Assembly: GCF_002251795.1 (NCBI RefSeq)
Contig: NZ_NOXU01000020.1
Coordinates: 33,693-97,692 of the forward strand
Source of the DNA: Niveispirillum lacus
GTDB taxonomy: Bacteria > Pseudomonadota > Alphaproteobacteria > Azospirillales > Azospirillaceae
DNA length: 64,000 nucleotides
Direction: 5' to 3'
Part shown: positions 5,773 to 58,407 of the stretch, in pieces
How the letters are laid out: the number at the start of each line of letters is the position of its first letter
Numbering within the stretch: the stretch's first letter is position 1
The notes under the pieces: generated by a model
The model's database searches: none
Told to the model about the DNA's origin: nothing
The model's input: the letters and a program-made list of their open reading frames with translations, nothing else
Position numbers and translations under genes: made by a program

Positions 5773-5814
5773 ACGAAGCTCACAACCCTTCATATCGATC
5801 TTGGAGCCTGAACC

Positions 5815-35027: not shown

Positions 35028-35087
35028 TGTGTTGCTCCATTCACGACGACTCTTGATCCGAAGCCCGCAGCGGACTAAAGTGACCAT

Positions 35088-35148
35088 ATAGTCCCGATAT
35101 GGATTATCTATATCAGGACTATTTTGCCACACAAGTCCAAATTTGGAC
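35088..35148. promoter_or_regulatory. Two palindromic operators between divergent operons
   Basis: ATAGTCCCGATAT (35088-35100) and ATATCAGGACTAT (35110-35122) are inverted with one mismatch. GTCCAAATTTGGAC (35135-35148) is a perfect palindrome with the same GTCC half-site. They lie between the multi-ubiquitin gene and the antitoxin gene, a place from which one repressor could control both. Confidence 0.65.
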
Positions 35149-35160
35149 ATTTGGGGAGAA

Positions 35161-35556
35161 ATGTACGTGGCCAACATCGAACCCGTCGCTCGGACAGGCG
35201 AAGGGCGGTTCGCAATTCCGGCAGTCATGGAGGCTTTTCAGGGTCTCGCGGAATTGTGGCAGCTGTCCACCGAGGACCAGCTATTGCTGCTCGGGTCCCC
35301 TGGAAGGTCGACATTTTTCAAATGGAAGAAGGAAGGCGGCACTATTCCGCGAGACACAGTCGAGCGCGTCTCGCACCTCCTGGCGATTCACAAGGCGCTT
35401 GAGATCCTGCTTCCAGACACCCGTGCAGCCGACGGTTGGGTCCGTAAACCTAACCAGTTCTTCAACGGCCAAAGTGCACTTGATGTGATGCGCGGCGGCC
35501 ATGTGATGGATATCTACCGTGTCCGACAGTATGTGGACGCCCAGCGTGGCGGTTGA
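35161..35556 (+). CDS. Xre/MbcA/ParS-type antitoxin
   Basis: A 131-residue protein from the ATG at 35161 after TTGGGGAGAA; the TTG at 35143 lies inside an operator. The helical N-terminal part (AFQGLAELWQLSTEDQLLLL then GSPGRSTFFKWKKEGG) and C-terminal segment (GWVRKPNQFFNGQSALDVMR) match antitoxins of the MbcA/ParS/Xre family, which neutralise RES-type NAD-degrading toxins. The stop lies 38 bp inside the RES gene. The GTCC palindromes just upstream suggest autoregulation. Confidence 0.85.
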   Translation: MYVANIEPVARTGEGRFAIPAVMEAFQGLAELWQLSTEDQLLLLGSPGRSTFFKWKKEGGTIPRDTVERVSHLLAIHKALEILLPDTRAADGWVRKPNQFFNGQSALDVMRGGHVMDIYRVRQYVDAQRGG

Positions 35557-39300: not shown

Positions 39301-39548
39301 ATCGCCTGATTCGAGCAAATGTAGAGGATGTCGATCCGCTTGGTGCTGTCCCACAGGTGCTCGATCATGCGGGCGATGACGCCGCGCGCCACCATCGTCT
39401 TGCCGAGGCCGACTTCGTCCGCGACCAGGAACTGGCGGACAGGATCGTCCTCGCCGTAGAGCCGGTCGAAGACATAATCGACGGTGCGCCGCTGAAAGAC
39501 CTTGAGGGGCGCAAGCGCCGCGTCGGCGCGGAACCGTTCATTCGGCAT
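36396..39548 (-). CDS. SNF2/DEAD-type helicase of the five-gene operon
   Basis: A 1050-residue protein from the ATG at 39548 (MPNERFRADAALAPLKVFQR), which overlaps the preceding stop. It has superfamily 2 motifs: DEVGLGKTMVARGVIARM (about residue 46), IIMDEFQRFRDLL (about 259), TLLLSATPYRM, and a C-terminal motif VI, QREGRVHRFKGHA (about 914), after ATTSVGQEGLDF. DEVGLGKT and the large insertions are those of SNF2-like translocases in phage-defence clusters. It is the last gene in an operon with PLD, DUF6361 and AddAB-like genes. It should move on DNA and position or activate the nucleases; this is inference. Confidence 0.85.
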   Translation of the reverse strand: MPNERFRADAALAPLKVFQRRTVDYVFDRLYGEDDPVRQFLVADEVGLGKTMVARGVIARMIEHLWDSTKRIDILYICSNQAIAAQNLNRLNVLGRRELALPTRMTLVPLQLRDQVGLDANKVNFISLTPGTTFDLRSATGVTQERALLHHLLHDLVSRPRGLHNLLQVTAGIDGWNRAVDTLTLQGVDKRIIERFRRDVQADRDLFEELERVCELFPRRRDSYPPEMTQPRNSLVARLRAKLSHACVDALQPDLIIMDEFQRFRDLLHGDSDAAILARELFDYSGGDGHAARTLLLSATPYRMLTLAGDEPDEGDHYQDFLETLSFLYGREQGPELAATLSREMRAFRGLLHTLPQSHASAVEARQAIEQRLRKVIARTERVASTIERDSMMSEPTITVSVAPADLAQASALSQVARTLNAPEIIEYWKSAPYLLNFMRHYSLKQLLRDEAEAPSATLRNAIQAARPTMLDHEAIDAYALLEPANGRMRAIMDDIFDHRLEQNLWIPAAMPYYGDARSGAPLTKALIFSAWSMVPDAIAALLSYEAERRMGVGESGRRYFEPHRLRPLQFRQDQGRHVGLRALLLIYPSPALAELADPLAVFSETETALSQDGMRAAIGDRLKPALEALRKGAVSRQDANSAEWAAPAVIDDLLGARSRTWLETPQGMRALASEDAFQDHVAELAAAVKTHDIGTSFADLPDLLVDVALGSPAVCALRALKRIAPELAWDDPRLLSAAAEVAWSFRALFNQHDAVALLRRDTDDHYWRRVLVYCAEHNLQAVLDEYAHYLVDAEGLGARPAEDRAMGVARAMAQALAIRPSQIEVDDVQVDGESLAISKFQMRGRFAMRLADYKDEDGAVARLGGVRDAFNSPFRPFILATTSVGQEGLDFHPYCYRVYHWNLPGNPVDLEQREGRVHRFKGHAVRLNLAERQAAVVRGRGQAPNDPWKLMFERARSEAAVDTDLIPYWIYEGSVRVERRVPMLPFSREVTRLAWLKRSLTIYRLAFGQPRQDDLLNYLETLTGDVMNFNLLADLQIRLEPEVPGHSGR

Positions 39549-41394
39549 GAGCAGCGTCCTGCGTGGCGAGCGCAATCCGGAAGGTGTTCCAGAGCGCGCG
39601 GAACTCGGTCGGAATCGGATCGGTACCTGCGCCGTCGTCGGTTTCCAGACGGGCGATCAGCCGTTCGATGGCGCGGAGCTGGTCGCCGCCACGGCAGAAG
39701 GCGCGAACCAACTCTTCAAGGATCGGCGCGTCGTCGTTAGCCGCGCGCCACGCGCCCTGACCGGACCCATCCTGCGCCGCCAGCGCGGCGGCGAAGGGAT
39801 CGCCCAATTCGGAGAGCAGCAACCGGAGATAGCGGAAGAAGGCATCCTTGCTGTCGATCACCCAGCGCAGGATGGCGGCGTGGCGCTCGGCGGGCAGCCC
39901 CTCGATCATGAGCCCGGTGCTGAACAGGATGGAGACATTCTCCGTCTCGTCCGTCAGATGGCAGGCGAGAAACCGGGTTAGATCGACCAGCGGCATTGCG
40001 CCAAGGTCGACGGGCTGCCCCCGCCGAACAGGCTCCAACACATCGCGCGCATGACTTTCGCCCCGCGTGATCGGCCAAACCCGCAGGACACCGAGCCCGA
40101 GAAGGGACAACGGCTTGGACGGCGCCAGCCAGACCCGCCAGGCGGGCGCGCCATCGGCGTTGGGCTCGGCGCGCTCGCAGCGGAGCGTGAGGCCGCTTTG
40201 GCAAATCTCTCGCCGGGCCAAGTCCAATCGCGCCTCGGCCGCGCATTGCGCGGCGTCGGCGGAGTTCATCTCGTCGCGAACGAAAGGCCGCGTCAGCCGG
40301 CCGAACCCCTTCTCGCCGAGGATTTCCTCGACGCTGCCGACCCGCGACCGCTTGCCGGTCAGGGTCGCGAAAATCTCGACATTGCCGCCGGTCAGCAGCG
40401 CCGGGCGCGTGGCGTTTCCTGAGCCGACCGTGATCGCGGTGTCCCAGCCGCGCTCGGTGACGAACGCCTTGGCGTGGAGCCCTTGCAAGGCCGTTGCGTC
40501 GGCTTCCTCGCCATCTTCCGTGGCCGCCATCTCGTCGAGCACGGCCACGCGCGCGAAGCGGTCCAGCGTGGCGACGGACACCCGCGCGAGTTCGTCGGAG
40601 CGTCCGATGAAGATCGGCTTTTCGGCGCTGGGCAGGACGGCGAGCAGCGACAAGGTCTGGTCGTCGCAAAAGGGCGAGACCACGCCCAGCCGCACGCAAG
40701 GTTCCGGGCGCCACGGCTTGCCGCCGAGGCCGTTGACCGCGAAGGAGACGCCCTCGAATGGTTCGGGCAGACTCCATTCGGCGCGTCGTATGTCTTCGGC
40801 CAGCTCATCGATGAGGGCCTTCGTTCCGTCGGGAGCGCCGACGGTCGCCAGGTCGGGGAGCTGGCGAAGGAAGTCGGCTACCGGGCGGTTGATGGCTTTG
40901 GGCTGCTTGGAGATCACCCCGTCGAGGGTGGCGGCAATATCCCAGGAGCGGTCGCGCGTCAGGTTTCGGGAGAGGATGAGCAGGCGCAGGCGCGCTGGAT
41001 CTTCGGGCCGCAACGGCGTGAAGCGCAGCGCCCACATCTTGGGGTGGAAGGCGCCGCCCTGAGGGGCGGCGACCTCGACCACGATGCGTTCGAGCAGCGA
41101 GCAAAGGCGGGAATGGGGACGGACGCTCGCCTGGATGTGGCCGGCGTCGGTGAAGACGACGAGGCGGCCGGCGATGCGCTCGGCGCCTTCCAAGAGCGCC
41201 AAGGGGTGAGAAAGGATGTCGTCGCGATTCTCGGCAGCGAACAGCGCCAGACTGACCGGCACGGCGAGCGCGGTCTCGAAGTCGAGCGAGAAGGTCGTGG
41301 CGACCGCCGCGTCGAAGACGTAGCCCGCCGGCGGCTGGAGATTGGCGCCGTAGAGCGTTCGCTGTTCGGGATCGAGGCTGCGCCTATTCAGCAT
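39538..41394 (-). CDS. Phospholipase D-like nuclease family protein
   Basis: A 618-residue protein with two HKD-type motifs: HPKMWALRF (about residue 117) with LLILSRNLTRDRSWD behind it, and HAKAFV (about residue 306) followed by AITVGSGNATRPALL. Two such motifs form one catalytic site in the PLD superfamily, which includes nucleases that act beside helicases in defence systems. The first motif has HPK and the second HAK, so the catalytic His and Lys are kept. The gene overlaps both neighbours by about 10 bp. The C-terminal 200 residues are helical and may contact the helicase. Confidence 0.8.
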   Translation of the reverse strand: MLNRRSLDPEQRTLYGANLQPPAGYVFDAAVATTFSLDFETALAVPVSLALFAAENRDDILSHPLALLEGAERIAGRLVVFTDAGHIQASVRPHSRLCSLLERIVVEVAAPQGGAFHPKMWALRFTPLRPEDPARLRLLILSRNLTRDRSWDIAATLDGVISKQPKAINRPVADFLRQLPDLATVGAPDGTKALIDELAEDIRRAEWSLPEPFEGVSFAVNGLGGKPWRPEPCVRLGVVSPFCDDQTLSLLAVLPSAEKPIFIGRSDELARVSVATLDRFARVAVLDEMAATEDGEEADATALQGLHAKAFVTERGWDTAITVGSGNATRPALLTGGNVEIFATLTGKRSRVGSVEEILGEKGFGRLTRPFVRDEMNSADAAQCAAEARLDLARREICQSGLTLRCERAEPNADGAPAWRVWLAPSKPLSLLGLGVLRVWPITRGESHARDVLEPVRRGQPVDLGAMPLVDLTRFLACHLTDETENVSILFSTGLMIEGLPAERHAAILRWVIDSKDAFFRYLRLLLSELGDPFAAALAAQDGSGQGAWRAANDDAPILEELVRAFCRGGDQLRAIERLIARLETDDGAGTDPIPTEFRALWNTFRIALATQDAAHAE

Positions 41395-42562
41395 GGGCGA
41401 GATCCCGCAGGTGCGATTTGGCCTGCGCCCAGCGGAAAGTGAGGCGGTCGGCGCCGGAGGCGCCGGTCCAGCGGTCGCGCACGGCGTGATTGGCGTAGCG
41501 GGACTGGCTGGTTTTCAGCCGCCGCTCGCGCTCTTCGACAAGCTGCCGCGCCGCAGGCGACGCGATCACCTGCTCCGTCCCGGCCAGAACCAGCTCGCGC
41601 CACTCGGTCACAAAGCGCTTGGCGGCTGGCCGGACGGTGTGCGCGGGGTGCTCGACGACGTTCCAGAAATCATCGAGCGACCATGCGCGCACGGCGCTGG
41701 GATCGAGTTCGTCGCTCCAGGCCGCAAGCCGCTCGCGATAGCCGTCGATCCAGTCGTCGCGCTGGCGCAGCTCGCTGAGCGCGAGATTGTAGAGTAGCGC
41801 TGCGCCGTGCATCGCATGGGAGAAGATTTCCCCATGCTGAACGAGGCGGCGCACTGCGGATGGAAACGCCGACAGATGGGGGTGCGTCCAGATATAGTCA
41901 CAGTCCGCGTCGACGCCTTCGCGCGCCAGCATCGTGAGCAGTGCGGTGGGCTGGCTGGCGATCAGGCGGTCGATGAGGAATTGCGCCTCGTCGGTGGTCA
42001 GGCGGAAGACGGCGTGCTCAAGCAAGTTGCCGGGCACCTGGGGCAAAGTCGGATTCCAGACGGCAGGCATCTGAGCGACGGCCAGAGCATCTTCGCCGCT
42101 GGATGAGCCGCGGGATCGGCCACGGCCCCGCAAGGCGACGAACAGACTGTCGAGCGAACCAGGAAAGACCCGGATGCCCCACGCGCCCAAGCCAGCCCAA
42201 TAGACGGAACTCGGCAACCGCTGAAGCCGTGGTCCTGCATCCCGGCCGATGATGCCGTTGGACTCACCGCCGGCTTTCAGGGCGTCGGCAAGCCGGATTT
42301 CGGTGTCGCGCGCTTCGGTGCGGAGCTGCGCTTCAGGGACTTCGCGCTTTTCCAGCGCGCGATAGAGCCAGGGAATGAACAGCATGTATCGCAGTCGCGT
42401 CTGGATCGTGCTCGTGCCTGGAAAGAGATGATCGGCAATGGAATCCCGGATCGCCCCCAGCCCCAGCTCGTCGCGGGTCTCGCGCTCCTGAAAGAGCGCC
42501 ATGATGCGCTGCGCGCGCTGTCGCTCGGCTTCATCGAAATCGATCCAGGCAAGAGACGACAT
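41384..42562 (-). CDS. DUF6361 family protein
   Basis: A 392-residue protein with the family signature at its N-terminus: LAWIDFDEAERQRAQRIMAL, DELGLGAIRDSIADHLFPGT and RYMLFIPWLYRALE. DUF6361 proteins are encoded beside helicase and PLD genes in many genomes, but no activity is known. The later part is helical with scattered Trp/Tyr and no clear catalytic motif. It overlaps the PLD gene by 11 bp and lies 4 bp behind the AddA-like gene, which supports one transcript. Confidence 0.8.
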   Translation of the reverse strand: MSSLAWIDFDEAERQRAQRIMALFQERETRDELGLGAIRDSIADHLFPGTSTIQTRLRYMLFIPWLYRALEKREVPEAQLRTEARDTEIRLADALKAGGESNGIIGRDAGPRLQRLPSSVYWAGLGAWGIRVFPGSLDSLFVALRGRGRSRGSSSGEDALAVAQMPAVWNPTLPQVPGNLLEHAVFRLTTDEAQFLIDRLIASQPTALLTMLAREGVDADCDYIWTHPHLSAFPSAVRRLVQHGEIFSHAMHGAALLYNLALSELRQRDDWIDGYRERLAAWSDELDPSAVRAWSLDDFWNVVEHPAHTVRPAAKRFVTEWRELVLAGTEQVIASPAARQLVEERERRLKTSQSRYANHAVRDRWTGASGADRLTFRWAQAKSHLRDLAHAE

Positions 42563-42566
42563 GGGC

Positions 42567-45500
42567 TCAGGCCGCCTCGCTCTCGGTCTGCTTCGTCGGC
42601 AAGATGGGAATGACTGAGCCGGAGGTCATCAGCACGATCAGTCCGCGCTCGGCGCCGGTCATGTCGAGATAGGCCCGCACCTGCGCGCGATAGTGATCGA
42701 GCATTTCCAGTGCTGGCACCACATCGCTTTTCCAGTCCACGACGACGGCGGGACGGCCCTCAGCCGTCAGGGTCAGGGCGTCGACGATCCCGGCGGTTGC
42801 GATTTCCACGCCGTCGGCCGTCCGTGCGGAATAGACGGGAAATTCGGCCAGAAGACCAGGCCGCAGGGCCGCGATGTCGGGGAGGGCCAGGGTCCGGGCC
42901 ACGCAGGCCGCCAGTTCCTGCGCCGACAGCCCTGCTGCCGGGTCGGCGACCGGGGACCGGCCGAGGGAGCGGATGAGGTCGTCAGCCCGTTCGGCCAGGT
43001 CGGCATCCACCTCTAGGGTTTCGCCGGTCAGCACCTCTTCCATGAGCTTGTGGAGGATCAGCCCGCGCTCGCGGCCACCCTGCACGAGGGCGGCGGCTTC
43101 CAGTTCGGGGGGCTGATCGTCGGCCGACCCCGTCCAGAGCGCGGCTTCTTCTTCCCGCAGCACGGTACCCGCGGCGTTTTCGTCGCGGCTGGGCGCAAGC
43201 CAGGTCAACCGCATCTGCGCGGCCGCGATGGCTTCGGCTTCGGCGGCGAAGCCATCGCGCGTCTGGGTGTTGCCCGCGCCCGCACCTGCGGCTGCGAAAC
43301 CGGTAGGCAAGTGAGAGACGTCCAGGCCGGGTAAGGCCGCGAGCGACAGATCGACGAGTCCGATCCAGGCCGATCTCGACTGCGTTACGTCGAGCCGAGG
43401 TAAGACGAGGAGTTCGCGGGCGCGGGTGGCCGCGACATACCAGAGCCGGATGCGCTCGCGGTCCAGTTCCTCCTTTTCCGCCTGGCGCGCGATTTCATAG
43501 CCCTCGGGCGTGACGCCCAGGACCGGGCAATAGAAGGTCTCGGTCTGGCGGTCGATGACGGCGCTGTCGGTCGTCATGACGCCGGTCATGGTGTTGATCG
43601 GAATGACGATCGGCCACTCGAGCCCCTTGGCTGCGTGCATGGTGAAGAGCGCAACCGCTTCCTCCTGGGCGTCGGGCCGTCCCTCAACGGCGCGGGCTTC
43701 GTCGGACCACGCCGCCGTCATCGCCTCGGCGAAGGCGCGCAGGCCGCGCACGGCGTAGCCGGTCGACAGGCTGAGATAGAGATCGACATTGGCCAGCGCG
43801 CGCTCGGCCTGGCCGCGATGGCGCTCGAGGAGGAGCGGACGGACGCGCATCACATCAACGGCCTGCGAGAGCAGCTCGTGCGGGGTCGTGCTGTTGCCGC
43901 GCCGGGAGAGCGATTGCAGCCGCTCGATGATTTGACGCGCAAGCGGGTGCGTGACGACGGCAGGGTCGATGCTTAGATCCAAGCGCGGGATCCGATCCGG
44001 CTGTTCTTCCGAGCGCGGAAGTCCCCAGATGATGTCCAGCAGGTCTTCTTCGGTGAGACCGACCAGAGGCCCGCGCAGGAGCGCGCCGAGCGCAAGCGTG
44101 TCGCGGCGGTCGGCCAGCACACGGGTAAGCGCGAGGAGATCCTGGATCTCCTGGCGGCGGAAAAAACCCTTGCCGGCTTGGGTCGCCACGGGGATGCCGC
44201 GGCGTTCCAGGGCTTCCTCATAGCGCCACAGCTCCGCGCCGGTTGGCGCCAGCAAGGCGATGTCGCCCGGCTGGCAGGGGCGCTCGGCGGCACTGCGACG
44301 ATCGACGATGGGGTGGCTTTCAATCAGCCGGACGCACAGCTCGGCGATGGCGTCGGCTTCGGCGTCGCGCTGCTGTTCGGCGCTGGCCTTGCCGTTTTCA
44401 TCGGCCACGGCGATGTCGAGGGCGGCCACGCACAGGCCGCCCCGATCGTCATGGAACGGGTCGAGAGCGGTGAAGCCCGGCTGGCCGTCGGCCGAGAGCA
44501 CGGCCTCGAAACGCTCGTTGACGAAGGTGAGGATCGAGGCGCAGGAGCGGAAATTGGTCGAGATCGACAGGAGGCTGCCGGGGTGCTGGGCGCGGAAGGC
44601 GTCACGTGCCTGCACATAGGCGCCGACATCTGCGCCCCGGAAGCGATAGATCGCCTGCTTGGGGTCACCGACCAGGAAGAGCGCGCCCGGCCGGATTTGG
44701 AACCGGGTCCAGTCGGCGTCGACATCGACCGGCTCGCCGCATAGCCGCCAGAAGATTTCGGTTTGCAGCGGATCGGTGTCCTGGAACTCGTCGACGAGGA
44801 CATGGGCGAAACGCTGCCCCAGCGCCCGGCGCACGGCGTCGTGGTCGCGCAGCAAGTTGCGCGCAGAGAAGATGAGATCGTCGAAATCGAGCTGGGCGCT
44901 GGCGCGCTTGTGGTCGCGATAGCGTTGCAGGATCGGACGCGCTTCGTCGATCAGCGCCGCCAAGGCATGGCCGGCGACGGCCTGCGCCAACGCGACCCAG
45001 GCGTCGCAACAGGCGGTGTAGTGGATCTCGGCTGCGTCGTTCAGCCGGTCGCCATCGGCCTTGGAGAAGCCGGCCTGCTTGGCTGCGGCGGCCCATTTGC
45101 CCTTCTTGCGGTAGGAAGCGAAGGCGCCGGTCTTGGTGCAAAGGTCCGGGTGGGGCCGCGCGGTCAGGAGCCGAACGAGGCCCGCGGGCGTCGCGGGATC
45201 GGGACCGTTCGCTACGGCGGTCGCCATTTCGGCCAGGCGCTCGACGATCGTCACCGTTTCCGGCTCGGCCGCCGCAGTGCCGCCCATGAAGCTCGCGAAA
45301 TTCGCCGTGGCCTGCCGGAACGCCGTGAGGTAGGCGTCAAGCGAAGAGACCGGAGGGGCCGAGAGAGCGGGGCGGCGGCGCAGATTCTCGGCGATCTTGT
45401 GGATGAGCGCCACGGTTTCGCCGGGGCTGTGCAGCACCATCTCGGCGAGGATGCCGCCCTGGCCGCCGGACAGGCGTCCGCGCAGCCAGCCATCGACAAT

Positions 45501-45968
45501 TTCGAGGAAGGTGAGGTCAGCCTGGTTGCGATCCATGACGCCAGCGCCGGGATCGATGTCGGCCTCCGCCGGATAGGGCTTTATCAGGCGCTGGCAGAAG
45601 CCGTGGATGGTCGAACAGGTGATTTCATCGATCGCGGCGCTGGCGGCGGCGAGATTGTTGCGATGGGCCTGGGACAGCCCATCGGGCAGCGCCACGCGCA
45701 GCTCGGTCGCAATCGTGCCGGCCGAGAGATCGGCGACGAACTCGCGGACACGCGACAGCAGCTCGCTCGCGGCGAGTTCGGTGAAGGTGACGGCGGCGAT
45801 GGAGCGCGGCGCGATGCCTTCGGCCATCATGGCGGCGATGCGGCCAGCCATGACGGCGGTCTTGCCTGAACCCGCGCCGGCCTCGACCAGGATTGAGCGA
45901 TCATGGAGGCTGATCGCATCGCGGCGCGCGCCGTCGTCCTTCAGCATCTTGGACACGCTGCTCATCAT
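42567..45968 (-). CDS. AddA/RecB-like UvrD-type helicase-nuclease
   Basis: A 1133-residue protein with superfamily 1 motifs in order: VEAGAGSGKTAVMAGRIAAM (near residue 31), VTFTELAASELLSRV, HVLVDEFQDTDPLQTEIFWR, GDPKQAIYRFRGADV, TMHAAKGLEW and RLWYVAATRARELL. A C-terminal PD-(D/E)XK nuclease follows: AGIVDALTL then VVDWKSD (about 1078) and YRAQVRAYL. This is the AddA architecture. Chromosomal AddA repairs double-strand breaks and degrades foreign DNA; here it is part of a defence-type operon. The gene overlaps the AddB-like stop by 4 bp. Confidence 0.85.
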   Translation of the reverse strand: MMSSVSKMLKDDGARRDAISLHDRSILVEAGAGSGKTAVMAGRIAAMMAEGIAPRSIAAVTFTELAASELLSRVREFVADLSAGTIATELRVALPDGLSQAHRNNLAAASAAIDEITCSTIHGFCQRLIKPYPAEADIDPGAGVMDRNQADLTFLEIVDGWLRGRLSGGQGGILAEMVLHSPGETVALIHKIAENLRRRPALSAPPVSSLDAYLTAFRQATANFASFMGGTAAAEPETVTIVERLAEMATAVANGPDPATPAGLVRLLTARPHPDLCTKTGAFASYRKKGKWAAAAKQAGFSKADGDRLNDAAEIHYTACCDAWVALAQAVAGHALAALIDEARPILQRYRDHKRASAQLDFDDLIFSARNLLRDHDAVRRALGQRFAHVLVDEFQDTDPLQTEIFWRLCGEPVDVDADWTRFQIRPGALFLVGDPKQAIYRFRGADVGAYVQARDAFRAQHPGSLLSISTNFRSCASILTFVNERFEAVLSADGQPGFTALDPFHDDRGGLCVAALDIAVADENGKASAEQQRDAEADAIAELCVRLIESHPIVDRRSAAERPCQPGDIALLAPTGAELWRYEEALERRGIPVATQAGKGFFRRQEIQDLLALTRVLADRRDTLALGALLRGPLVGLTEEDLLDIIWGLPRSEEQPDRIPRLDLSIDPAVVTHPLARQIIERLQSLSRRGNSTTPHELLSQAVDVMRVRPLLLERHRGQAERALANVDLYLSLSTGYAVRGLRAFAEAMTAAWSDEARAVEGRPDAQEEAVALFTMHAAKGLEWPIVIPINTMTGVMTTDSAVIDRQTETFYCPVLGVTPEGYEIARQAEKEELDRERIRLWYVAATRARELLVLPRLDVTQSRSAWIGLVDLSLAALPGLDVSHLPTGFAAAGAGAGNTQTRDGFAAEAEAIAAAQMRLTWLAPSRDENAAGTVLREEEAALWTGSADDQPPELEAAALVQGGRERGLILHKLMEEVLTGETLEVDADLAERADDLIRSLGRSPVADPAAGLSAQELAACVARTLALPDIAALRPGLLAEFPVYSARTADGVEIATAGIVDALTLTAEGRPAVVVDWKSDVVPALEMLDHYRAQVRAYLDMTGAERGLIVLMTSGSVIPILPTKQTESEAA

Positions 45969-48619
45969 TCCGCCTCCCAGACCTGAGCGACTTCGCCAAG
46001 CTGCTCCGCGGCGGCCGGCATTTTGCGTTTGCAGTACGTGGCGCTGGCGTTGGCCGGCAGAGCGAAGGCGAGGTCGTCATAGTCGCCGCCGGTATCCGGG
46101 CCAGGCAAGGCCGCGCCTCCGACGAGACTCGACCGTGCCGCGCGCAGATAGCCCGTGATTTCCGCGAGGACGGCCTCGGGATCGTCGAGCTTGAGATCGA
46201 CGGGCTCGCGCGGATAGAGCAGCGAGGCGCTGATCGCGACGTCGTCTCCGAGTAGCGCCTTCACTGCGAAGGCATAGAGGCACCGCTGAAGCTCGCGTCC
46301 ACCGTTCAGGCGGATGTCGCCGCGCGGCGGCCGTCCGGTCTTGTAGTCCCGCACGAGGGCGCGCTTACCGTCGCCGGAAATGTCGAGCCGGTCGATATAG
46401 CCGGCGATGTTGAAGCCCGTGTCGGGAATCGTGACCGGCGCGCTCGCATCCCAGGGCGTCTCCGCGTCGGATTTCGGCTCTGAGCCACCGAAGGGCACCT
46501 CCCCGTAGGATCGGGCCCCCGGCAGGATATCATCGCCATATGACAATGCGCGGCCCGCCATCACGCGGGCGTCGTCCAGCGTGCGGCTCCAGATGACAGG
46601 CGGCGGAACCGGACGCTCACGCTCCCAATCGGCGGCGACGGCTTGCGCAGCCCGCGCCACCGCGGCTTCGATGGTTTCGGCGTTGGCGGAGGAAAGGCCG
46701 CCTCCGGTTTCGAGGTCGCGCAAGGCGCGATCGAGAACCATGTGGACGAGATCGCCGGTCCCGAGCGCATCGAGCACGAGCGGTTCGGCGCTGCTCTGCG
46801 GTTCGCGCCATCCGAACGCATAGACCCACAGGAAGCTGAGTGGATTTCGCAGCAGGCGGCGCAGCGAGCTGGCCGACTGGGTGCGGCCGAGGATGGCGAG
46901 AACGAGCGGATGATCCGCCCGCACGAGCCCGTCATGGGGAGTGATCTCGGCCTCTCGCCAGTCGCGCCAGCAGCCGTGCGCGCTGAACGCCTGCGGATCG
47001 GCGGCGAACTCCCGGGGCCGGGCCATGAGGCGGTCGGTCTCGCTGAAGGCGTGCACCGGCGTCGCGTTGCGGCGCAGATAGGTTTCGTTGCCACGCCCGG
47101 CGAGCAGGGGGCTGCGACCCAGGAGACGCCCGTCGGTGTCGCGCCGGGCGCGCGAGAGAACGACGGTATCGGCCGTCGTGGCGAGGATCGTCTCGAAGTC
47201 GCGGCGGTCGGCGAGGTTGACCGGCAGCGGGTCGAGCACCGGGGTCGGGATGATATGGTCCGGGATCAGGCGGTCCTCGGCAATCCCACGCGGCCAGCGC
47301 GAGGAATTGAGCCCGAGGAGCCGCACGAAGCGGCGGGGCGACGCGGCGAGCGCGCTGGCCGGCATCCAGGCGACGCAGACGCACGCTTCCAGCCCGTCGT
47401 CCTGCTTCAGAGTTTCCAGAGTGGCGTCGATCGAGGCGGCGGGACCGGCGAGCAGAGCCTTGCGCCAGATCGCGAGCGAGCGGCCCTTGAGGAAGGCTTC
47501 TCCGATCTCGCTGGCGGCCTCCGATCCTTTAACTAGGGTCGCGACCGCCGTGCGCAGAGCAGGAACATGGTCGGTGCCGTCGGGCCAGTCTTCCGGCGTC
47601 AGCCGGGCCAGCAGGCGGTTCCAGGCACCCGGCGTCGAGAGCGGCGCATCGGTCGGCAGCGCCCGCAACCAGCCCTCGGGCAGGGTCTCGAAAGGCCCGC
47701 TGTCCCGGCAGAGCGCCGCGAGGCGGCGCAGCCGCGACTGCGACAGACCGCGAACCACGATGTCGGCCAGCGCCGCAGCTGCCTGGCCCTCGCGGGTGGC
47801 GACGGTGCGGATGCCATGGACGAAGTGAAGGTCGATGTTGGCGTCGGCGCGCAGGGCCAGGAAATGATCGTCATAGTCGGCGGGTGAGGCGGTCGCGATG
47901 GCGATCTCCGAAGCCGGGACGCCCGAGGCAAGCAGGCCGCGCACCCAGCGCATCGCCTCAATGGCCTCGTGATAGGCCGTCGCCGCGCTGATGGCGCTGA
48001 TTCCCGGCGCTTGCGCCAGCGCGCGTGCAACCGTGACGCCGGTGCCGTCCAGCCATGCGGGAACGCTCCTCGGGCCGGCCGACCACCGCACGGGAATATG
48101 GGCGGTGAGGGCCTGGAGCAGCGGCCGCCAGCAGGGCGAGAGTTCGGTAAGGCCGACGATCTCCAACGGCCCGAGGACCGCCGGCGCATGGCCGATCCGG
48201 ACGGTTGCGGCGGCCACGATGTCGAGAGGCCGCATCATTCCGGGCGGAAGCTGGTCGAGGACGACCGCTTCCAGCCGCGCGATAGCGGCGAGACGGGGAT
48301 GATCCGCCGCGCTTGCGGCAAGATCGATGCCCGCGCGCCAAGCTTTGTGAAGCGTGTCGGCCGCCGCGTCGATCATGCCGGGAAGAGCCTTGATGCTCTC
48401 CAACTCGCCCATCTGCGTGGCGGGCAGGGCTGCCTGGATGGCCGCGCGCAGGCTCTCGTCGTCGATGGATTGGGTGAAACCACCAGCCAGCCGAACAGCG
48501 GCCTGCTCGAGGGTCATGATCTGGATGCCGTTATGGCGGTCGCGGGCCGCCGTTAACCGGCTTTCCCGCATCGCGAGCCGACCATGAACGATCAAGGTGG
48601 AGCGATGTACGTTGGTCAT
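45965..48619 (-). CDS. AddB-like PD-(D/E)XK nuclease
   Basis: An 884-residue protein; the ATG at 48619 (MTNVHRSTLIVHGRLAMRES) has GGAGG 7 nt upstream, so the frame to 48694 is rejected. The N-terminal part resembles the AddB/RecC helicase fold (GIQIMTLEQAAVRLAGGFTQ), but I see no Walker A, so it is probably not an active motor. The C-terminal nuclease is clear: FNIAGYIDRLDISGDGKRAL, VRDYKTGRP (about residue 758), RELQRCLYAF. Cys residues that could hold an iron-sulfur cluster are not evident in the expected AddB pattern. It opens the five-gene operon. Confidence 0.8.
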   Translation of the reverse strand: MTNVHRSTLIVHGRLAMRESRLTAARDRHNGIQIMTLEQAAVRLAGGFTQSIDDESLRAAIQAALPATQMGELESIKALPGMIDAAADTLHKAWRAGIDLAASAADHPRLAAIARLEAVVLDQLPPGMMRPLDIVAAATVRIGHAPAVLGPLEIVGLTELSPCWRPLLQALTAHIPVRWSAGPRSVPAWLDGTGVTVARALAQAPGISAISAATAYHEAIEAMRWVRGLLASGVPASEIAIATASPADYDDHFLALRADANIDLHFVHGIRTVATREGQAAAALADIVVRGLSQSRLRRLAALCRDSGPFETLPEGWLRALPTDAPLSTPGAWNRLLARLTPEDWPDGTDHVPALRTAVATLVKGSEAASEIGEAFLKGRSLAIWRKALLAGPAASIDATLETLKQDDGLEACVCVAWMPASALAASPRRFVRLLGLNSSRWPRGIAEDRLIPDHIIPTPVLDPLPVNLADRRDFETILATTADTVVLSRARRDTDGRLLGRSPLLAGRGNETYLRRNATPVHAFSETDRLMARPREFAADPQAFSAHGCWRDWREAEITPHDGLVRADHPLVLAILGRTQSASSLRRLLRNPLSFLWVYAFGWREPQSSAEPLVLDALGTGDLVHMVLDRALRDLETGGGLSSANAETIEAAVARAAQAVAADWERERPVPPPVIWSRTLDDARVMAGRALSYGDDILPGARSYGEVPFGGSEPKSDAETPWDASAPVTIPDTGFNIAGYIDRLDISGDGKRALVRDYKTGRPPRGDIRLNGGRELQRCLYAFAVKALLGDDVAISASLLYPREPVDLKLDDPEAVLAEITGYLRAARSSLVGGAALPGPDTGGDYDDLAFALPANASATYCKRKMPAAAEQLGEVAQVWEAE

Positions 48620-48988
48620 GGCCATCCTCCCTCTAAGCCAAGTTGTTGAGCTGCTGGTTGAAACCCATAGGGTTGCTGTCTCAACATACCTCACTGGAGT
48701 TAGGGGTGTAAAATACTCAGGAGATACACGGTTATGTTATGCGGCTATCAACTGATGCTAAAAACAGTTGGGGCTGGGATGATCCCAGTCTACGGTTGAC
48801 GGACCGCCTCCTTCCTGATGGGGCTTCCGGTCGGATGCCGGCACCCGGGCGTCTTTTGCGCGGCACTGTTGAACAGCCAGCCAATATTGCTCATGCGCAG
48901 CCCAGCTGAAGTTGAACCGGACTTTGGGAGCGATCCGTATGGATCTTCTGAACCATAACCACGTTGCAGTCTCTGCACTTGGCACTTT
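48620..48988. other. Non-coding stretch between the reverse transcriptase and AddB-like genes
   Basis: It contains CTGGGA TG ATCCCAG-type dyad symmetry near 48774-48788, followed on the minus strand by CCCCAACTGTTTTT, a possible weak terminator for the reverse transcriptase gene. Short minus-strand frames exist (to 48758) but lack a ribosome site. No gene is supported. Confidence 0.5.
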
Positions 48989-52838: not shown

Positions 52839-55800
52839 TTACCCACAAACCACTTGGCGAACGATGTCCTCCTGGATGCTGCCTTCCGCAGGCACTCTTA
52901 AATGGAGCAGAGAGCACGCGCCCTTTCCGTGTATCAGCAACCTTGAAATCGGGTTTGCCTCGCGCACGGTCAAGGCTCGCACATGGCCGATCACAATTGC
53001 GCATTCGCGCGCACGAGACAGCGCAACATTCATGCGATTCTCATCGAGCAGGAAATTTGTGTTTCCACCGCTGCGCGTCATTAACAGCAAGACGATGTCC
53101 GCTTCGCCGCCCTGTACGGCATCCACGGTCGTGGTCTGTACGCGGTGTTCCAGACACCGTCTACGAATCTCATGCTCGACAGCGACGCGTTGCGCTTGAT
53201 AAGGGCAGATCACCAGACAAGCCCCATCAGTCGCAAGCGCTGCAACCAGTTCTACGGCCACCCGTCGCTCGAATTCGTTTTCGAGACTCTTACCCTGAAC
53301 GAAACGATGTCGATACTCCGGCACATCGCTACAGTCCACTATCGTGAGACGCTGCCGGGTCAGTGCCCAGTCCGTGTCCTGCCGCGACGACTTCAGTCGG
53401 CCCTCGTAGAAGAGCTCGCTCACGGCTGCCCCGATTTTCGGGTGCATGCGGTGCTGGACGGCTAGCATAGCCTTGTGGCTGTCCGGTAAGGACTGGAACA
53501 GGTGGTGGAAATAGCTGTCACGCAGCAGCGCCTCCACCTCCTGAGGGTCGAGCCGGTTGGTGCCGTCGTCGCCTAGCATTTCCTCCGTCACGGTCGGCGG
53601 CAACTGCTTATGGTCACCGACAAGCACGAGGCGGTGGGCGCGCATCGCTGGCAGCAAGATTTCCGGCGCGAAAGCCTTACCGGCCTCATCAAACACTACC
53701 AAGTCGAACTCCTTGTCCAGCAACGCGAAATCGGCACGCGACATACCCATCGAGGTCACGGCATGCACCTCGCGGCCTGCCAGGATCCAGCGGCTGAGCG
53801 CTTCGCGCACGCCCCTGGCCAGGGTGCCGTCATCGCCCTCTATCAGCGCGCGCCATCCCGGATGCACGCCGCTCGCTGGCGCCAGCGCCGACGCGCGCCA
53901 ACTCTCGATCAGGCGATCTTGCGAACAGTTCACCAAGCTGGTGCCTTCGATCCGAGAGGCCTGCGCCACATAGCGTACGATGCGCTCCGCCAGCCCCGGG
54001 GCCTCTTTCAACAACCGCTGCATCACCTCGTTGACCGCGACGTGCGTCGGCGCCACCACAAGCACGCGAGCGGGCAGCGGCTTGCCCGACGACTCCCAGT
54101 CCGTGAGGAATCGCCGCAAGAGAGCAACGACTAGCGTCGTCTTGCCCGTCCCCGGCGGGCCCCACACCGCGAATACGCCTTCATCGGCAAGGGCGGTATC
54201 GATGATGGTGCTGGGGGTGTTCGCGTGACTGCGCGTTGTATTCGCAGGACCTTCCTCCAGGTGGAACAGGTCGGCGCGCACCGTTGGCGACACGAAGCGT
54301 TTCTCCAACGCTGAGCCGGCGGAACGCGCCATGATCTCCTGCGTATAGCTTGCGCCGACCACGGCCAGATAACGCAAGGCGTGGGCGTCGGCGTTGGCAT
54401 CATGAAACGAGATTTCGACCAAGCCTAAGGCGTCGTCAAACACCTTGAGCGCCCGCAGCGGCATCTTCTGGCCGACGGCGTCCACGCCTTCCACCCGCAG
54501 AGGCTCCGCGTCCGCTTCGAGCAGCCAAGCGGGAAGCGGGCGCTGCAGCACAATGCATCGTGCTGCCTTCCCCGCCCGCCTTCTGCCGGTGGCGAACACT
54601 TCCACGCGCGCATCGCGTTCCGCCATATCTCTCAGATCTTCAAATAGCACCTGCATCTTGCGCAGGTGTAATGCGGTATGGCGGTCCATAAGGTTGATGC
54701 GTTGGTTGGCAAGTTCCTCAGCCAGCATGTCCATGAACTCCTGGAACAAGCCTGGAGTAAGTTCCTGTTCGGCACCGCTGCCAGGGACGAAGACGCCCAC
54801 TTCCGCATGGATGCGCACGGAGGTCGGTGGCCGCGGACCGGCATCGTCCACTGCCAGCAACTGGAAACAGTCAGCGCCTTCTTTGCAGCGCATGCGCAAA
54901 GCTACCTCTCCAACCTGGAAGACGAAGACACCCTGGTCCTGCATGGACACGCGCCAAGGGCGCGATAGGGCGCCAGATTTCTCGATACGGTCCCACGCTT
55001 CCTGCAGTTCGAGTAACTGTTCGGTCCTGCAGGCCAGCGGAATGGGGCTCCACTCCTTGGCCTCTCGGCGGACGGTGGGCGAGAAGCCCACGTCGAGCAG
55101 CTCCGTACCCGGGCGGGCACAAACCGCGCGGTCGATTTCCGCCCAGACCCACGGGCGACTAAAGACACTTAGAGGTGCACCAGGAGATGTATTGCCTCGG
55201 GGATCACTCCGCTCCAGCGGCAGTCGGAATTCGATGCGCGTCGGTGGGCCGCCCTCGACGCCTGTGTCCAGGCTCGGCGTGATGCTGACCCGCAATCCGT
55301 CTCGCATACGACCTTCGACAGTCACCTCGAAAGCCGTCGTTCCGTTGCGCGCCAGCCGCAACAGTTCCCCTCGCAGCGGGCACACGCTCGCAGTTCGGCT
55401 ATGGTGGTCCACATCGTGAACTGCAACCAATTCGCCACAGTGGTTGCCCCGCAGCACATAGCCGCGATGCACCTTCGTGCCGGCTTCCAGCTGTAGCAAC
55501 GCGCCGCGGGCAGGGTAGTCTGTCGGCATCTGCAGCCGTTCCAGGGAAAAAAGGTCCTCCACCCCTGTTGGCAAGCTATAGCGAAACCATTCCAGGTGCG
55601 CACGCTCGGCCTCGACAATGCCTACTGCGTGCTCGAGTTCCATAATGGTGCGTCGCAATGCGTTCTCGCCCACCGGGCGCAAGTGGTGGGCCGCCAGCGC
55701 AGATGCCTGTTTGAGCGCAGCGCGCAACTCCGGTTCGATCTGCTCTCGCATCTCGATTTCCGCAGCGATAAGGAGTCGGACTTGCGCCATCCAGGGGCCG

Positions 55801-55958
55801 AGCAGCGTGCGGCGCCGCTGCGCGTCGGCCGCAAGGATATCTTCCCGCTCGCGTTCCAGCTTCAGCAGTTCGCGCCGCTGCTCTTCCGTCTTGTCGCCGA
55901 GCCACCACTGGACGGCCATGGCGCCCATGCTGATCCCAGCCAGAGCCAGGTGGATCAT
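52839..55958 (-). CDS. Membrane-anchored Upf1-like superfamily 1 helicase
   Basis: A 1039-residue protein. Residues 2-20 form a short hydrophobic anchor (IHLALAGISMGAMAVQWWLG) followed by coiled coil (KTEEQRRELLKLEREREDIL). About 450 residues of unknown fold come next. The helicase core has VWGPPGTGKTTLVVALLRRF (about 600), LVVFDEAGKAFAPEIL (about 756), LVGDHKQLPPTV, LAVQHRMHPKIGAAV, TVDAVQGGEADIVLL and NRMNVALSRAREC. This is the COG1112/Upf1-like group, which acts on RNA or DNA. The ATG overlaps the stop of the 145-residue gene. Its context next to a DRT gene and an S1-domain gene suggests nucleic-acid surveillance at the membrane. Confidence 0.85.
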   Translation of the reverse strand: MIHLALAGISMGAMAVQWWLGDKTEEQRRELLKLEREREDILAADAQRRRTLLGPWMAQVRLLIAAEIEMREQIEPELRAALKQASALAAHHLRPVGENALRRTIMELEHAVGIVEAERAHLEWFRYSLPTGVEDLFSLERLQMPTDYPARGALLQLEAGTKVHRGYVLRGNHCGELVAVHDVDHHSRTASVCPLRGELLRLARNGTTAFEVTVEGRMRDGLRVSITPSLDTGVEGGPPTRIEFRLPLERSDPRGNTSPGAPLSVFSRPWVWAEIDRAVCARPGTELLDVGFSPTVRREAKEWSPIPLACRTEQLLELQEAWDRIEKSGALSRPWRVSMQDQGVFVFQVGEVALRMRCKEGADCFQLLAVDDAGPRPPTSVRIHAEVGVFVPGSGAEQELTPGLFQEFMDMLAEELANQRINLMDRHTALHLRKMQVLFEDLRDMAERDARVEVFATGRRRAGKAARCIVLQRPLPAWLLEADAEPLRVEGVDAVGQKMPLRALKVFDDALGLVEISFHDANADAHALRYLAVVGASYTQEIMARSAGSALEKRFVSPTVRADLFHLEEGPANTTRSHANTPSTIIDTALADEGVFAVWGPPGTGKTTLVVALLRRFLTDWESSGKPLPARVLVVAPTHVAVNEVMQRLLKEAPGLAERIVRYVAQASRIEGTSLVNCSQDRLIESWRASALAPASGVHPGWRALIEGDDGTLARGVREALSRWILAGREVHAVTSMGMSRADFALLDKEFDLVVFDEAGKAFAPEILLPAMRAHRLVLVGDHKQLPPTVTEEMLGDDGTNRLDPQEVEALLRDSYFHHLFQSLPDSHKAMLAVQHRMHPKIGAAVSELFYEGRLKSSRQDTDWALTRQRLTIVDCSDVPEYRHRFVQGKSLENEFERRVAVELVAALATDGACLVICPYQAQRVAVEHEIRRRCLEHRVQTTTVDAVQGGEADIVLLLMTRSGGNTNFLLDENRMNVALSRARECAIVIGHVRALTVREANPISRLLIHGKGACSLLHLRVPAEGSIQEDIVRQVVCG

Positions 55959-56392
55959 TTCAGCCGGATCGTCGCGAGCGTTCTCAGGGATTCGTTGGCA
56001 TCGGCTATGATGCGTCGGCGCCCTTCGAAGTCTGAAGATTGGCCGGCCTCGTCGATTAGCATTTCCAATATTTTGAACACGTATTCCTGGATCTCCTCGA
56101 GTTTGTCCAGTGCGTGGTGTCCGAGGTCGACTTGTAGCCGGGTAGTCTCGAGGGCCAGCCTTGCCTTCTCGATATCTGCATGCGCCTTAGCGATGATAGC
56201 TTCGCTATCCTTCTTCGCACGTAAATAGTCGAATCCTTTGCCGATTGTATTGAATGCATCACCCAATACCTTCACGCGGGCCACCGCCAGGCTGTTCTCC
56301 AATTTGGCCAAATCCAGTTCCTTCGGCCCGGTGTCACTCGCCGCCGCAGGCATGGGCTTGGTCGCCTTAGGTAGATTAAGTTTGCTAGCCAT
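55955..56392 (-). CDS. 145-residue helical protein of the S1-helicase operon
   Basis: The ATG at 56392 follows GGAGGAATACCCC, a strong ribosome site. After a Lys/Pro-rich start the protein is almost entirely helical (LAVARVKVLGDAFNTIGKGF; AIIAKAHADIEKARLALETT; HHALDKLEEIQEYVFKILEM), so it is likely a helical bundle or coiled-coil partner. It overlaps the next gene by 4 bp and the previous by 8 bp. No family is recognised. A structural or regulatory role with the helicase is the simplest inference. Confidence 0.65.
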   Translation of the reverse strand: MASKLNLPKATKPMPAAASDTGPKELDLAKLENSLAVARVKVLGDAFNTIGKGFDYLRAKKDSEAIIAKAHADIEKARLALETTRLQVDLGHHALDKLEEIQEYVFKILEMLIDEAGQSSDFEGRRRIIADANESLRTLATIRLK

Positions 56393-56879
56393 GGGGTATT
56401 CCTCCTAGTTCCTTCCATCCGGCCAGTGCGGTGCCGAGTTGCTCCCAGGCATCGTCTAGCATCTCCTGGACATTCTCCAGTCCCTCGCGGTTAGGAATGT
56501 CCTCTTCCAACAGGAGGCCCAGCCACACCGTTGCGTCCTGCATCAGCCTAGCTGCAAGGTCGACCAGTCGTCGCGCCGGATCGAGGCGGCCCCGGTGCAG
56601 CTCGGATTCACGTTGTATTAGCGCCGCCATTTTCTTCAGAATTTCGCGTTCCTGAACTAACCGTTGCTCCAACAGCGCGATCTCCTCGCGCACCGCGGCG
56701 GTCCTCACCCTCGTGGCGCTGTAATCCAGCCCGGCCTGAATCGCGCCGAGAACGTCCGACACTGCCGCCAGCAGTCCCAGGGGGCCTACCCGGGCGGGCG
56801 TTCTCACCGCCGTCCCGACCCCAGCCCTGGCCATGATCTCGACCGTTTTCGACAGGAATCGAAGTGCCTCGCGTGCCAT
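56385..56879 (-). CDS. 164-residue helical protein, overlapping the S1 gene out of frame
   Basis: The ATG at 56879 has AAGG 9 nt upstream. The protein begins MAREALRFLSKTVEIMARAG and continues as long amphipathic helices (VREEIALLEQRLVQEREILK; LVDLAARLMQDATVWLGLLL). Residues 20-50 are hydrophobic enough to associate with membrane (VGPLGLLAAVSDVLGAIQAG). It resembles the 145-residue neighbour in being a helical bundle. Its first 91 codons lie in another frame of the tail of the tandem-S1 open frame. The reading here is the more protein-like one, so the tail of the other frame is probably spurious. Confidence 0.6.
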   Translation of the reverse strand: MAREALRFLSKTVEIMARAGVGTAVRTPARVGPLGLLAAVSDVLGAIQAGLDYSATRVRTAAVREEIALLEQRLVQEREILKKMAALIQRESELHRGRLDPARRLVDLAARLMQDATVWLGLLLEEDIPNREGLENVQEMLDDAWEQLGTALAGWKELGGIPHG

Positions 56880-58407
56880 GAAGAATCGCCTTGTTCCAGC
56901 CCAGGGGTTGCACTTCGATCAGCCTTCCGATGAATGCCAGTCTCCGCGCGAAGTCGAGAGGCAACACCGGCAGGATGTCGCCCGTTATGCATTGCATCCT
57001 AGTGTTTCTTTCCGGATCACTGTGCCAGAGAGTGCCGGAAGCCGGCTCGAGGTAAATTTCCTCGTCCTGTCGTTCCGGCACGGCATCCTTAGGTGTTTCC
57101 AACGTGACCTTCAGGCGCACGAGCAACACCACCCGCGCATATTCCCGGCAATGCGGCACGCGCTCCGGCGGCTCTCTTTCCGCGGTTGTAAAATGTCGGT
57201 ACAAACCCTCGGTAAGGAAGGCCTTCGGTACCGACAAGGTCACGGGAATCGCATGATGCCCAACCTGCAGCGACACCCGCAACCACTGGTCGGACAGCGC
57301 TTCTCGCGTCGTTTCAGGACATGCGTCGGGCAGCGCCGTGTACAGGCCGCTCAAAGCGCTAGAGGTATCCGCGCGCAACCGCAGCTCCTGCACCTTGTCC
57401 TGTAAAGCCTCCACCGAACCGGGTACTCGCTCTGCCGGCTCCGTTGCAGCCGGCAAAAAACGGGCGTTTGTCGGCATGGCGCTCGCAAACAGAAAGCGAA
57501 CAGGATGGCGCTTCGCGTCCGCCGCCTTGGCGAGAGCAGTCAACAGCGATTTGCCGCGTGCCGTCGGTATCCAGGATTTGGGTTTCACTAGTCCATGTTC
57601 GGCTAGCAGGTGCGCGATGGCGTGAACCGAGTCCGATGGCAGTCCCGTCTCGGCGACCAAGGCCGCGCAGTCCGCGCCGTCCGCCAGCCTCTCCAGGCAC
57701 CACTGGCAGATTACGTCCACTTTGCGCGGCAGGCGCACATCCACGTGCATGCGGCAGGCGACCGCACCCACGTCCCAAGGCACGGTTTGCAGCGGCTGCG
57801 CCGGTACCAGGCAGAGGCTCGCTGCAAAGCTGCTGTGCAACTTCGATGGCGGCAAGGAATCCTCTAGTTCCGGAACGTCGATCCAATCGACCCGAACCTT
57901 GATGACCTGGCCCGCGATTAGGGCGTATTTACGCTCCGGGCCGCCAGTGAAACGCGCGTGCGGAACGAAGCCTTTCGCCTTGCCATATGATACGTCGGTC
58001 TTATCCTCAGCCGGCCGCGTCACTCGAACCTCTACCTCGTCGCCAACGGACAGAGTGGACAGATCGACCCGTCGGATCATCTCCTCGACCAACGTCTCGC
58101 TGCAGGTGTACTCGCCCGGCTTCGAACGGGAAGGGCCAAGCACAACAACCTGTAGTCGGTCACCGCGCTGATAGTATGAGGAGACATCGGCTTTCTCACG
58201 CGGTATGTGATAACCACCAACATGGCCAATGCGTCCGTGCGATATCTGGACCTTGTAGAACTTTGGCCCCACGTAACTGATGGAGCCGGTGACAAGATCA
58301 CCGACCTCAAGATCGTTGCCTCGGTCTGTTATGGGCATTTCCGCGGTCGGGACCACGGACGGAGGGCCATTCAGGAAAAAGAGCCGGAAGATATCGAGAA
58401 TTCCCAT
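56608..58407 (-). CDS. Tandem-S1-domain protein, first gene of the helicase operon
   Basis: The open frame is 599 codons. It starts with a short hydrophobic segment (MGILDIFRLFFLNGPPSVVP). S1-like RNA-binding domains follow at about residues 33-75 (DLVTGSISYVGPKFYKVQIS) and 98-160 (VGDEVEVRVTRPAEDKTDVS). A winged-helix-like part (ADGADCAALVAETGLPSDSV) and a beta-rich C-terminal domain (RVSLQVGHHAIPVTLSVPKA) come after. Convincing protein sequence ends near codon 510 (RLIEVQPLGWNKAIL); the last 91 codons are Gly/Arg-rich and overlap the 164-residue gene. Either the natural stop was lost by an indel or a frameshift joins the two. The protein would bind RNA and supply substrate to the helicase; this is inference. 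Confidence 0.65.
   Translation of the reverse strand: MGILDIFRLFFLNGPPSVVPTAEMPITDRGNDLEVGDLVTGSISYVGPKFYKVQISHGRIGHVGGYHIPREKADVSSYYQRGDRLQVVVLGPSRSKPGEYTCSETLVEEMIRRVDLSTLSVGDEVEVRVTRPAEDKTDVSYGKAKGFVPHARFTGGPERKYALIAGQVIKVRVDWIDVPELEDSLPPSKLHSSFAASLCLVPAQPLQTVPWDVGAVACRMHVDVRLPRKVDVICQWCLERLADGADCAALVAETGLPSDSVHAIAHLLAEHGLVKPKSWIPTARGKSLLTALAKAADAKRHPVRFLFASAMPTNARFLPAATEPAERVPGSVEALQDKVQELRLRADTSSALSGLYTALPDACPETTREALSDQWLRVSLQVGHHAIPVTLSVPKAFLTEGLYRHFTTAEREPPERVPHCREYARVVLLVRLKVTLETPKDAVPERQDEEIYLEPASGTLWHSDPERNTRMQCITGDILPVLPLDFARRLAFIGRLIEVQPLGWNKAILHGTRGTSIPVENGRDHGQGWGRDGGENARPGRPPGTAGGSVGRSRRDSGRAGLQRHEGEDRRGARGDRAVGATVSSGTRNSEENGGANTT

Follow-up and report, generated by a model that had tools for sequence, protein, structure and literature searches.

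A conserved four-gene operon with a Mokosh-like helicase core and a candidate membrane module in a defence island of Niveispirillum lacus

Introduction

Do four closely packed genes beside a Drt1a gene form a system of their own and, if so, to which known system are they related? The question is raised by a 64,000-nucleotide stretch of the Niveispirillum lacus genome (contig NZ_NOXU01000020.1, positions 33,693 to 97,692; hereafter the window), in which four open reading frames (ORFs) on the minus strand at 52839..58407 are transcribed in the order first gene, second gene, third gene, helicase gene. A preliminary description of the window had read them as an unrecognised system consisting of a tandem-S1 protein, two small helical proteins and a membrane-anchored Upf1-like helicase. 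Here, we report that the same four-gene order recurs in five further loci, and that the helicase core and its winged-helix partner resemble those of Mokosh. Mokosh is described as joining a helicase to a PLD domain (PMC10952713, PMC10013915), and its reported action is the degradation of viral transcripts (PMC11291487).

Results

Four genes keep their order in six loci

All four ORFs were confirmed. The first gene (56608..58407, minus strand, 599 amino acids (aa)) encodes a winged-helix protein with an S1-like pair, the second (56385..56879, minus strand, 164 aa) and the third (55955..56392, minus strand, 145 aa) encode small, predicted helical proteins, and the fourth (52839..55958, minus strand, 1039 aa) encodes an MkoA/Upf1-type helicase with a putative N-terminal anchor. 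The overlaps of 4 to 8 bp that had been noted at two junctions are present as well: the second and third genes share 8 bp (56385-56392), and the third and fourth share 4 bp (55955-55958).

Six distinct loci carry this helicase N-terminus, namely the window, the viral contig L030, the Domibacillus mangrovi locus L079, the loci L165 and L166 from genomes of the class of D. mangrovi, and the locus L180 from genome G126, which belongs to the phylum of the window and to another class. In all six, the genes for the winged-helix protein, the two helical proteins and the anchored helicase follow one another in the same order, in the same orientation and with tight spacing, and all four reading frames are open. 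Co-occurrence of the four genes, on which the preliminary description had made the idea of a system depend, was thus found in every locus (6/6), and the four genes are almost certainly one conserved operon.

The relatives emerged from several searches. L030, found by scanning viral contigs with the helicase alignment, has its four genes beside serine recombinase genes, and L077 is a near-identical copy of it, truncated in the helicase. Among the 80 genome-contig loci listed, which are a sample of the matches, L079 is the one locus in which phmmer with the window and L030 proteins found the system. In 398 genomes of the class of L079, five helicase matches at E ≤ 1e-60 comprise the seed, two full-length proteins and two core-only proteins. 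Both full-length matches (L165 and L166, 34% and 32% identity) again sit in four-gene operons, and one of the core-only matches, L167, proved to be a regular type I Mokosh pair. A threshold of E ≤ 1e-55 left six matches among 398 genomes from the phylum of the window: its own, that of G126 and four others. The G126 match covers the helicase core only; the L180 locus nonetheless has the complete operon. At the other four loci, a long helicase (open frame of 1525-1660 aa) is followed by a frame of 467-494 aa, and neither the N-terminal profile nor the small-protein profiles found a match there.

The four-gene family is rare and scattered. The only helicase match at E ≤ 1e-20 in 385 genomes of the window's class is the window's own, G126 likewise is the only one of 147 genomes in its family with a match, and the remaining 81 genomes from the family and order of the window yielded no full-length relative. 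Across 185 loci, the N-terminal profile of the five relatives matches only the loci of these relatives, their copies and, weakly, the window (E 0.007-0.1). Helicase matches in plasmids and phages are mainly to the core, with none covering 80% of the query, and seven plasmid neighbourhoods around helicase matches hold other gene sets. No close relatives were found of the window helicase in viral contigs, or of the L180 helicase in viral contigs or E. coli genomes.

A conserved helicase core follows a hydrophobic N-terminus

The helicase core (residues 585-1005; 52944..54206, minus strand) contains Walker A, Walker B and Upf1-type motifs, and is matched by the Pfam models AAA_12 (E 2e-34) and AAA_11 (E 3.1e-32). 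The key motif residues are invariant across the six aligned rows, and a profile of the six helicases matches Upf1 in the PDB with an E-value of 1.3e-66. The best PADLOC match of the window helicase is MkoA (PDLC03920; E 5.8e-87, residues 584-1000), of which it covers positions 622-1086 of 1112, the Mokosh helicase L167 covering 84-1093. Furthermore, four of the five relatives' helicases were scanned against MkoA and match with E-values of 7.7e-105 to 1.2e-125. The L030 helicase (4290-8402) has a long cysteine-rich, zinc-ribbon-like C-terminal tail, the sole case among the six.

The helicase N-terminus (55557..55955, minus strand) combines a hydrophobic segment at residues 2-20 with a long, predicted helical region at about residues 25-134, and helices appear there in a low-confidence structure model. 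A hydrophobic start is found in all six loci, with a best 19-residue Kyte-Doolittle mean of 1.34 in the window, starting at residue 2, and of 1.86-2.33 in the five relatives. The N-terminal membrane anchor proposed for the window helicase stands in that the hydrophobic stretch is present, although the stretch is weaker than in the relatives and its assignment to a membrane rests on hydropathy.

The link between the N-terminus of the window helicase and those of the relatives is carried by profile-profile comparison and by blastp. Specifically, residues 1-155 match the five-member profile with a probability of 88.9% (E 2.4e-6, score 55.8, versus best shuffle scores of 22.0 of 60 and 22.8 of 50), and blastp aligns the window N-terminus with that of L180 at 26.6% over 177 residues (E 1.3e-6).

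The first-gene family resembles the N-terminus of MkoB

The first proteins of the five relatives are 346-357 aa long and form one family. The N-terminal, winged-helix part of this family is homologous to the N-termini of MkoB-type proteins (probability 93.8%, E 1.7e-7, score 58.9), the MkoB-type set being composed of L167 (PADLOC MkoB E 6.6e-54), L031 (E 9.5e-4), and L168 and L084, which were included by similarity only. With ungapped columns, the real score of 44.5 exceeds those of both the best column shuffle (22.9, 60 shuffles) and the reversed profile (11.4); a shuffle control with gapped columns gave 132.9, exceeding the real score, and was judged an artefact, so the ungapped-column control was used instead. 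The PADLOC MkoB models themselves match the first proteins of L165 (E 2.6e-4) and L079 (E 1.9e-3) weakly, and gave no match for that of L030 at a cut-off of E 0.01, for that of L166 at E 0.1 or for that of L180 at E 1e-5.

In the window, the winged-helix region of the first protein (residues 219-293; 57529..57753, minus strand) scores 29.9 against the five-relative family in hhalign (best shuffle 25.0 of 60 and 22.2 of 50) and includes a weak HTH_IclR match (residues 242-275, E 0.025). Against the joint profile, the window first protein scores 31.7, versus 22.5 and 21.3 for the best shuffles. A PLD nuclease, the part that defines Mokosh, was found by neither Pfam nor PADLOC in the four window proteins, and a search for HKD-type motifs found no HxK in the first protein and no HxK....D/E in the other three.

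The S1-like pair is particular to the window

The S1-like pair occupies residues 29-174 of the first protein (57886..58323, minus strand), where the ribosomal-S1 model PRK06676 matches with an E-value of 1.3e-4 and the Pfam model PF00575 (S1) matches residues 121-178 with an E-value of 0.0019, both below the curated cut-offs. A visible S1 start on the first protein is confined to the window (1/6 loci; 0/5 relatives): Pfam found no S1 in the first proteins of L030, L079, L165 and L180, and L166 was judged on length and sequence. The label "tandem-S1" is thus plausible for the window protein and does not describe the family, 5/6 loci being without the pair. Judged by these searches, S1 domains are not core to the four-gene family. 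Because the five relatives have no S1, while a separate set on viral contig L031 has S1 on the helicase, S1 looks like an add-on acquired more than once. No close relatives of the window S1 protein were found in viral contigs, genome contigs or plasmids, and among the 398 genomes of the window's phylum the search returned its own genome and one 64-residue match, which contains a stop and was discarded.

The 3′ end of the first ORF overlaps the second gene, out of frame, by 272 bp (56608..56879, minus strand), a feature absent from the preliminary description. The stop scan finds no stop in the first ORF before 56610, and codon-position G+C moves from the frame of the first ORF to that of the second gene between about 56950 and about 56770. 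In the five relatives, the ORF coordinates place the same junction between a 17-bp overlap and a 12-bp gap. Because the coding signal in the overlap is mainly that of the downstream gene and the junctions in the relatives are short, the ~90 residues that follow residue 509 in the 599-aa ORF are probably not conserved protein and reflect a spurious extension or a lost stop; the conserved part of the protein spans about residues 1-509. The sequence at 56608-56879 would fit a lost stop, a frameshift or a true extension.

Two small proteins share position, size and build

The second and third proteins have no trustworthy match in PADLOC, Pfam or other domain models, and that they are helical was read from their sequences. 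Each second-gene protein contains a single, moderately hydrophobic segment (0.42-1.52 on the 19-residue Kyte-Doolittle scale), followed in the window by a coiled-coil-like stretch; the segment of the third-gene proteins is weaker (0.33-1.31), and its position differs among the loci. The second protein of the window aligns with its L180 counterpart at 27.8% over 54 aa (blastp, E 0.003), and the third scores 16.4 against the five-member profile, marginally above the best shuffles (15.1 of 60 and 14.7 of 50). The kinship of these two proteins to their counterparts is mainly one of position, size and build. Searches of plasmids with the second-gene protein, the helicase N-terminus and the operon DNA, the third-gene protein being left out, gave no match.

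The operon lies in a variable slot of a defence island

Along the window, the order is a ubiquitin-like operon, Azaca, a UvrD/PD-(D/E)XK pair, Drt1a and the four-gene operon. The ubiquitin-like operon encodes a multi-ubiquitin protein and an adjacent E1-like ThiF/DUF6791 protein (33203-35228), and Azaca is complete, with ZacA, ZacB and ZacC (ZacABC, 36396-42562). Beside Azaca lie genes for two PD-(D/E)XK proteins, the first of them also a UvrD helicase (42567-48694). We considered whether 42567-48694 might be housekeeping addAB and rejected this assignment, the gene for the second protein, at 45965-48694, occurring in only 2 of 11 genomes of the genus, its own included. Drt1a lies 154 bp downstream of the helicase gene on the same strand (1274 bits in PADLOC). 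The antiphage setting that had been suggested from the DRT neighbour is borne out by the locus, which is a defence island (Azaca, Drt1a, ubiquitin-like operon).

The sister genome G465 retains the window stretch 36418-48633 with 91-92% identity, and over the 33 kb compared the match extends no further. From this breakpoint onwards, G465 (L185 4509-16571) carries genes for a WYL protein, HmaA, a sacsin-like protein and HmaB, which make up an Hma system. Because the Hma genes of G465 occupy the same breakpoint, the slot that holds Drt1a and the four genes is variable. The relatives, too, have defence neighbours, namely a HEC-06-like gene near L079, AbiD and type I restriction-modification genes near L166, and a type I restriction-modification system beside L180. 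A defence role of the four-gene operon is likely.

Discussion

The operon is real and conserved and apparently undescribed, and its output is probably membrane-linked. PADLOC holds no model for the four-gene set, its models catching single proteins only, and in the open-access full-text literature, outside which most subscription papers lie, no paper on such a set was found as judged by titles and abstract openings. The preliminary description of an unrecognised system therefore holds for the set as a whole, but not for the helicase core and the winged-helix partner, which are Mokosh-like.

How might the four proteins act? We find belief and doubt evenly balanced for the reading that we prefer, in which the four genes are a horizontally moving operon of antiviral type, related to Mokosh, with a sensor and, as its putative effector, a membrane module. 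The helicase and the winged-helix protein, in the window together with the S1-like pair, would recognise phage-derived RNA or RNA-containing structures, RNA as the ligand being suggested by the Upf1-like core and the sub-threshold S1 matches. At the inner membrane, the helicase N-terminus would form a coiled-coil assembly with both small proteins, which ATP hydrolysis would then alter, and the output would be membrane damage or growth arrest, replacing cleavage by the PLD nuclease. That a membrane-attached coiled-coil assembly replaces the effector we infer from the hydrophobic helicase starts and the hydrophobic segments of the small proteins. In a bolder form, the operon would represent a third Mokosh-like branch, in which Upf1-type sensing drives a three-part coiled-coil assembly on the inner membrane and of which the window form has gained an S1 module; this is possible, though doubtful.

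Several results weigh against the preferred reading. The hydropathy of the window helicase start is modest (1.34), and by the same measure neither small protein is clearly transmembrane. The first protein of the window resembles the first-gene family of the relatives weakly and has no match to the MkoB N-terminal profile alone (15.9; best shuffle 19.0 and 22.3). The second protein scores 12.6 against the five-member profile, below the best shuffles (17.7 and 17.4), and with earlier four-member profiles both small proteins were indistinguishable from shuffles (second, 14.7 versus 14.4; third, 20.0 versus 20.9). The N-terminus of the window helicase was missed by hmmsearch with the four-member profile at E 0.01, and reaches only E 0.007-0.1 with the five-member profile. 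The structure models of the first protein and the helicase are unusable, with predicted local distance difference test (pLDDT) scores of 31.5 and 35.3. At L165, one neighbour was scanned and gave no defence match. Lastly, a tree of helicase cores speaks neither for nor against a single clade of the six helicases. Its first build contained the six and the top 45 of 159 core matches, with six near-copies removed, and gave two changes; the second contained the top 30, with ten loci removed, including the long-branched L082 and L100, and separated the six from the rest by a branch with support 45/52. The window helicase sits on a very long branch in the core tree.

An unlikely alternative, in line with the function suggested in the preliminary description, is a membrane-tethered RNA surveillance system or clamp, which would bind and unwind phage transcripts and block their translation, leaving the membrane undamaged and host RNases to finish the work. 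The Upf1-family core, the S1-like pair and the hydrophobic N-terminus would all suit such a device. However, five of the six loci are without S1, no RNase was recognised in the operon, and the presence of two extra helical proteins in every locus implies an additional role; moreover, the part that is missing relative to Mokosh is the PLD domain.

We consider it more doubtful that the operon is a DNA barrier at the membrane, with the anchored helicase and the helical proteins stalling the entry or replication of phage or plasmid DNA. DNA binding is common among winged-helix domains, and the defence island would be a fitting context. The S1-like pair in the window speaks against such a barrier, as does the degradation of viral transcripts described for Mokosh (PMC11291487).

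That the operon is a decayed or incomplete Mokosh system, inactive by itself, is highly improbable. Such a remnant might be expected to have lost its PLD domain and to contain an ORF like the first one, which lacks its expected stop and runs on over the second gene, but the key motif residues do not vary among the six diverged helicases, the frames are open in six loci, and the layout is kept across phyla. A chance neighbourhood of unrelated genes, which might be argued from the small window proteins having no convincing family match and the second having no plasmid match, can be set aside, being refuted by the common order, orientation and tight spacing in 6/6 loci.

If the preferred reading of a sensor coupled to a membrane module is true, Mokosh-type helicases would be exchangeable sensors, to which either a nuclease or a membrane module can be wired. 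Exchangeable wiring of this kind is known for other defence sensors. In addition, the ligand of Upf1-like helicases would become testable with a non-nucleolytic output, and the reading would bear on the kinship between Mokosh and the eukaryotic piRNA pathway that has been proposed (PMC11291487).

Comparison with known systems

Several other gene sets combine a helicase of this kind with different partners. The set on viral contig L031 resembles the window operon in combining S1 domains (E 2.7e-16) with a Mokosh-like helicase and a weakly MkoB-like partner (E 9.5e-4), but its S1 is on the helicase itself and it has a separate PLD-type protein (DrmC/MkoB match). At L031 6360-13095, the helicase has S1 matches at both ends, and the set is a split, S1-bearing Mokosh variant.

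A further, unnamed set, found in plasmids of Polaromonas, Acinetobacter soli and Streptococcus salivarius and at L032, shares a related helicase core, a coiled-coil protein and a small protein (winged-helix by eye), but its helicase is short (~500-585 aa) and it includes a large protein whose middle is hydrophobic and pore-like. The pore-like large protein, coiled-coil protein, small protein and short MkoA-like helicase are seen at L028 5004-10326, L029 5169-10320 and L032 3763-9362, the first two proteins of L029 being split over several frames, and L072 1467-7007 has a like layout by gene sizes only. Hydrophobic and coiled-coil proteins around related cores would fit exchangeable output modules. 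On viral contig L033 (4600-12346), a large coiled-coil helicase is followed by two uncharacterised genes, beside serine recombinases; this set is possibly another helicase-based defence set.

The nearest published sets with Upf1-like helicases and coiled coils, CoCoNuTs, are described as McrBC systems (PMC11090510). Like the four-gene set, CoCoNuTs of types II and III (CnuH helicase) have a Upf1-like helicase, coiled coils and RNA-binding OB folds, as described there. Unlike them, the four-gene set was not found to have the McrBC core, neither the McrB GTPase nor McrC being found among the four operon proteins or the eight island proteins scanned.

Mokosh is the closest comparison. Type II (MkoC) shares the helicase core, with a weaker match (E 6.1e-26), but MkoC is a single protein with a PLD domain, which the four-gene set does not have. 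Type I (MkoA and MkoB) shares the Upf1/COG1112-type helicase core, the winged-helix N-terminus of the partner family and the association with defence, but also has the N-terminal half of MkoA, which carries a kinase annotation in plasmid homologues, and the PLD nuclease, both of which are missing from the four-gene set. Because PLD is the defining effector of Mokosh, the four-gene set is not classed as Mokosh: it has a sensor core of the Mokosh kind and, in addition, two extra small, predicted helical proteins and an anchored helicase N-terminus of its own.

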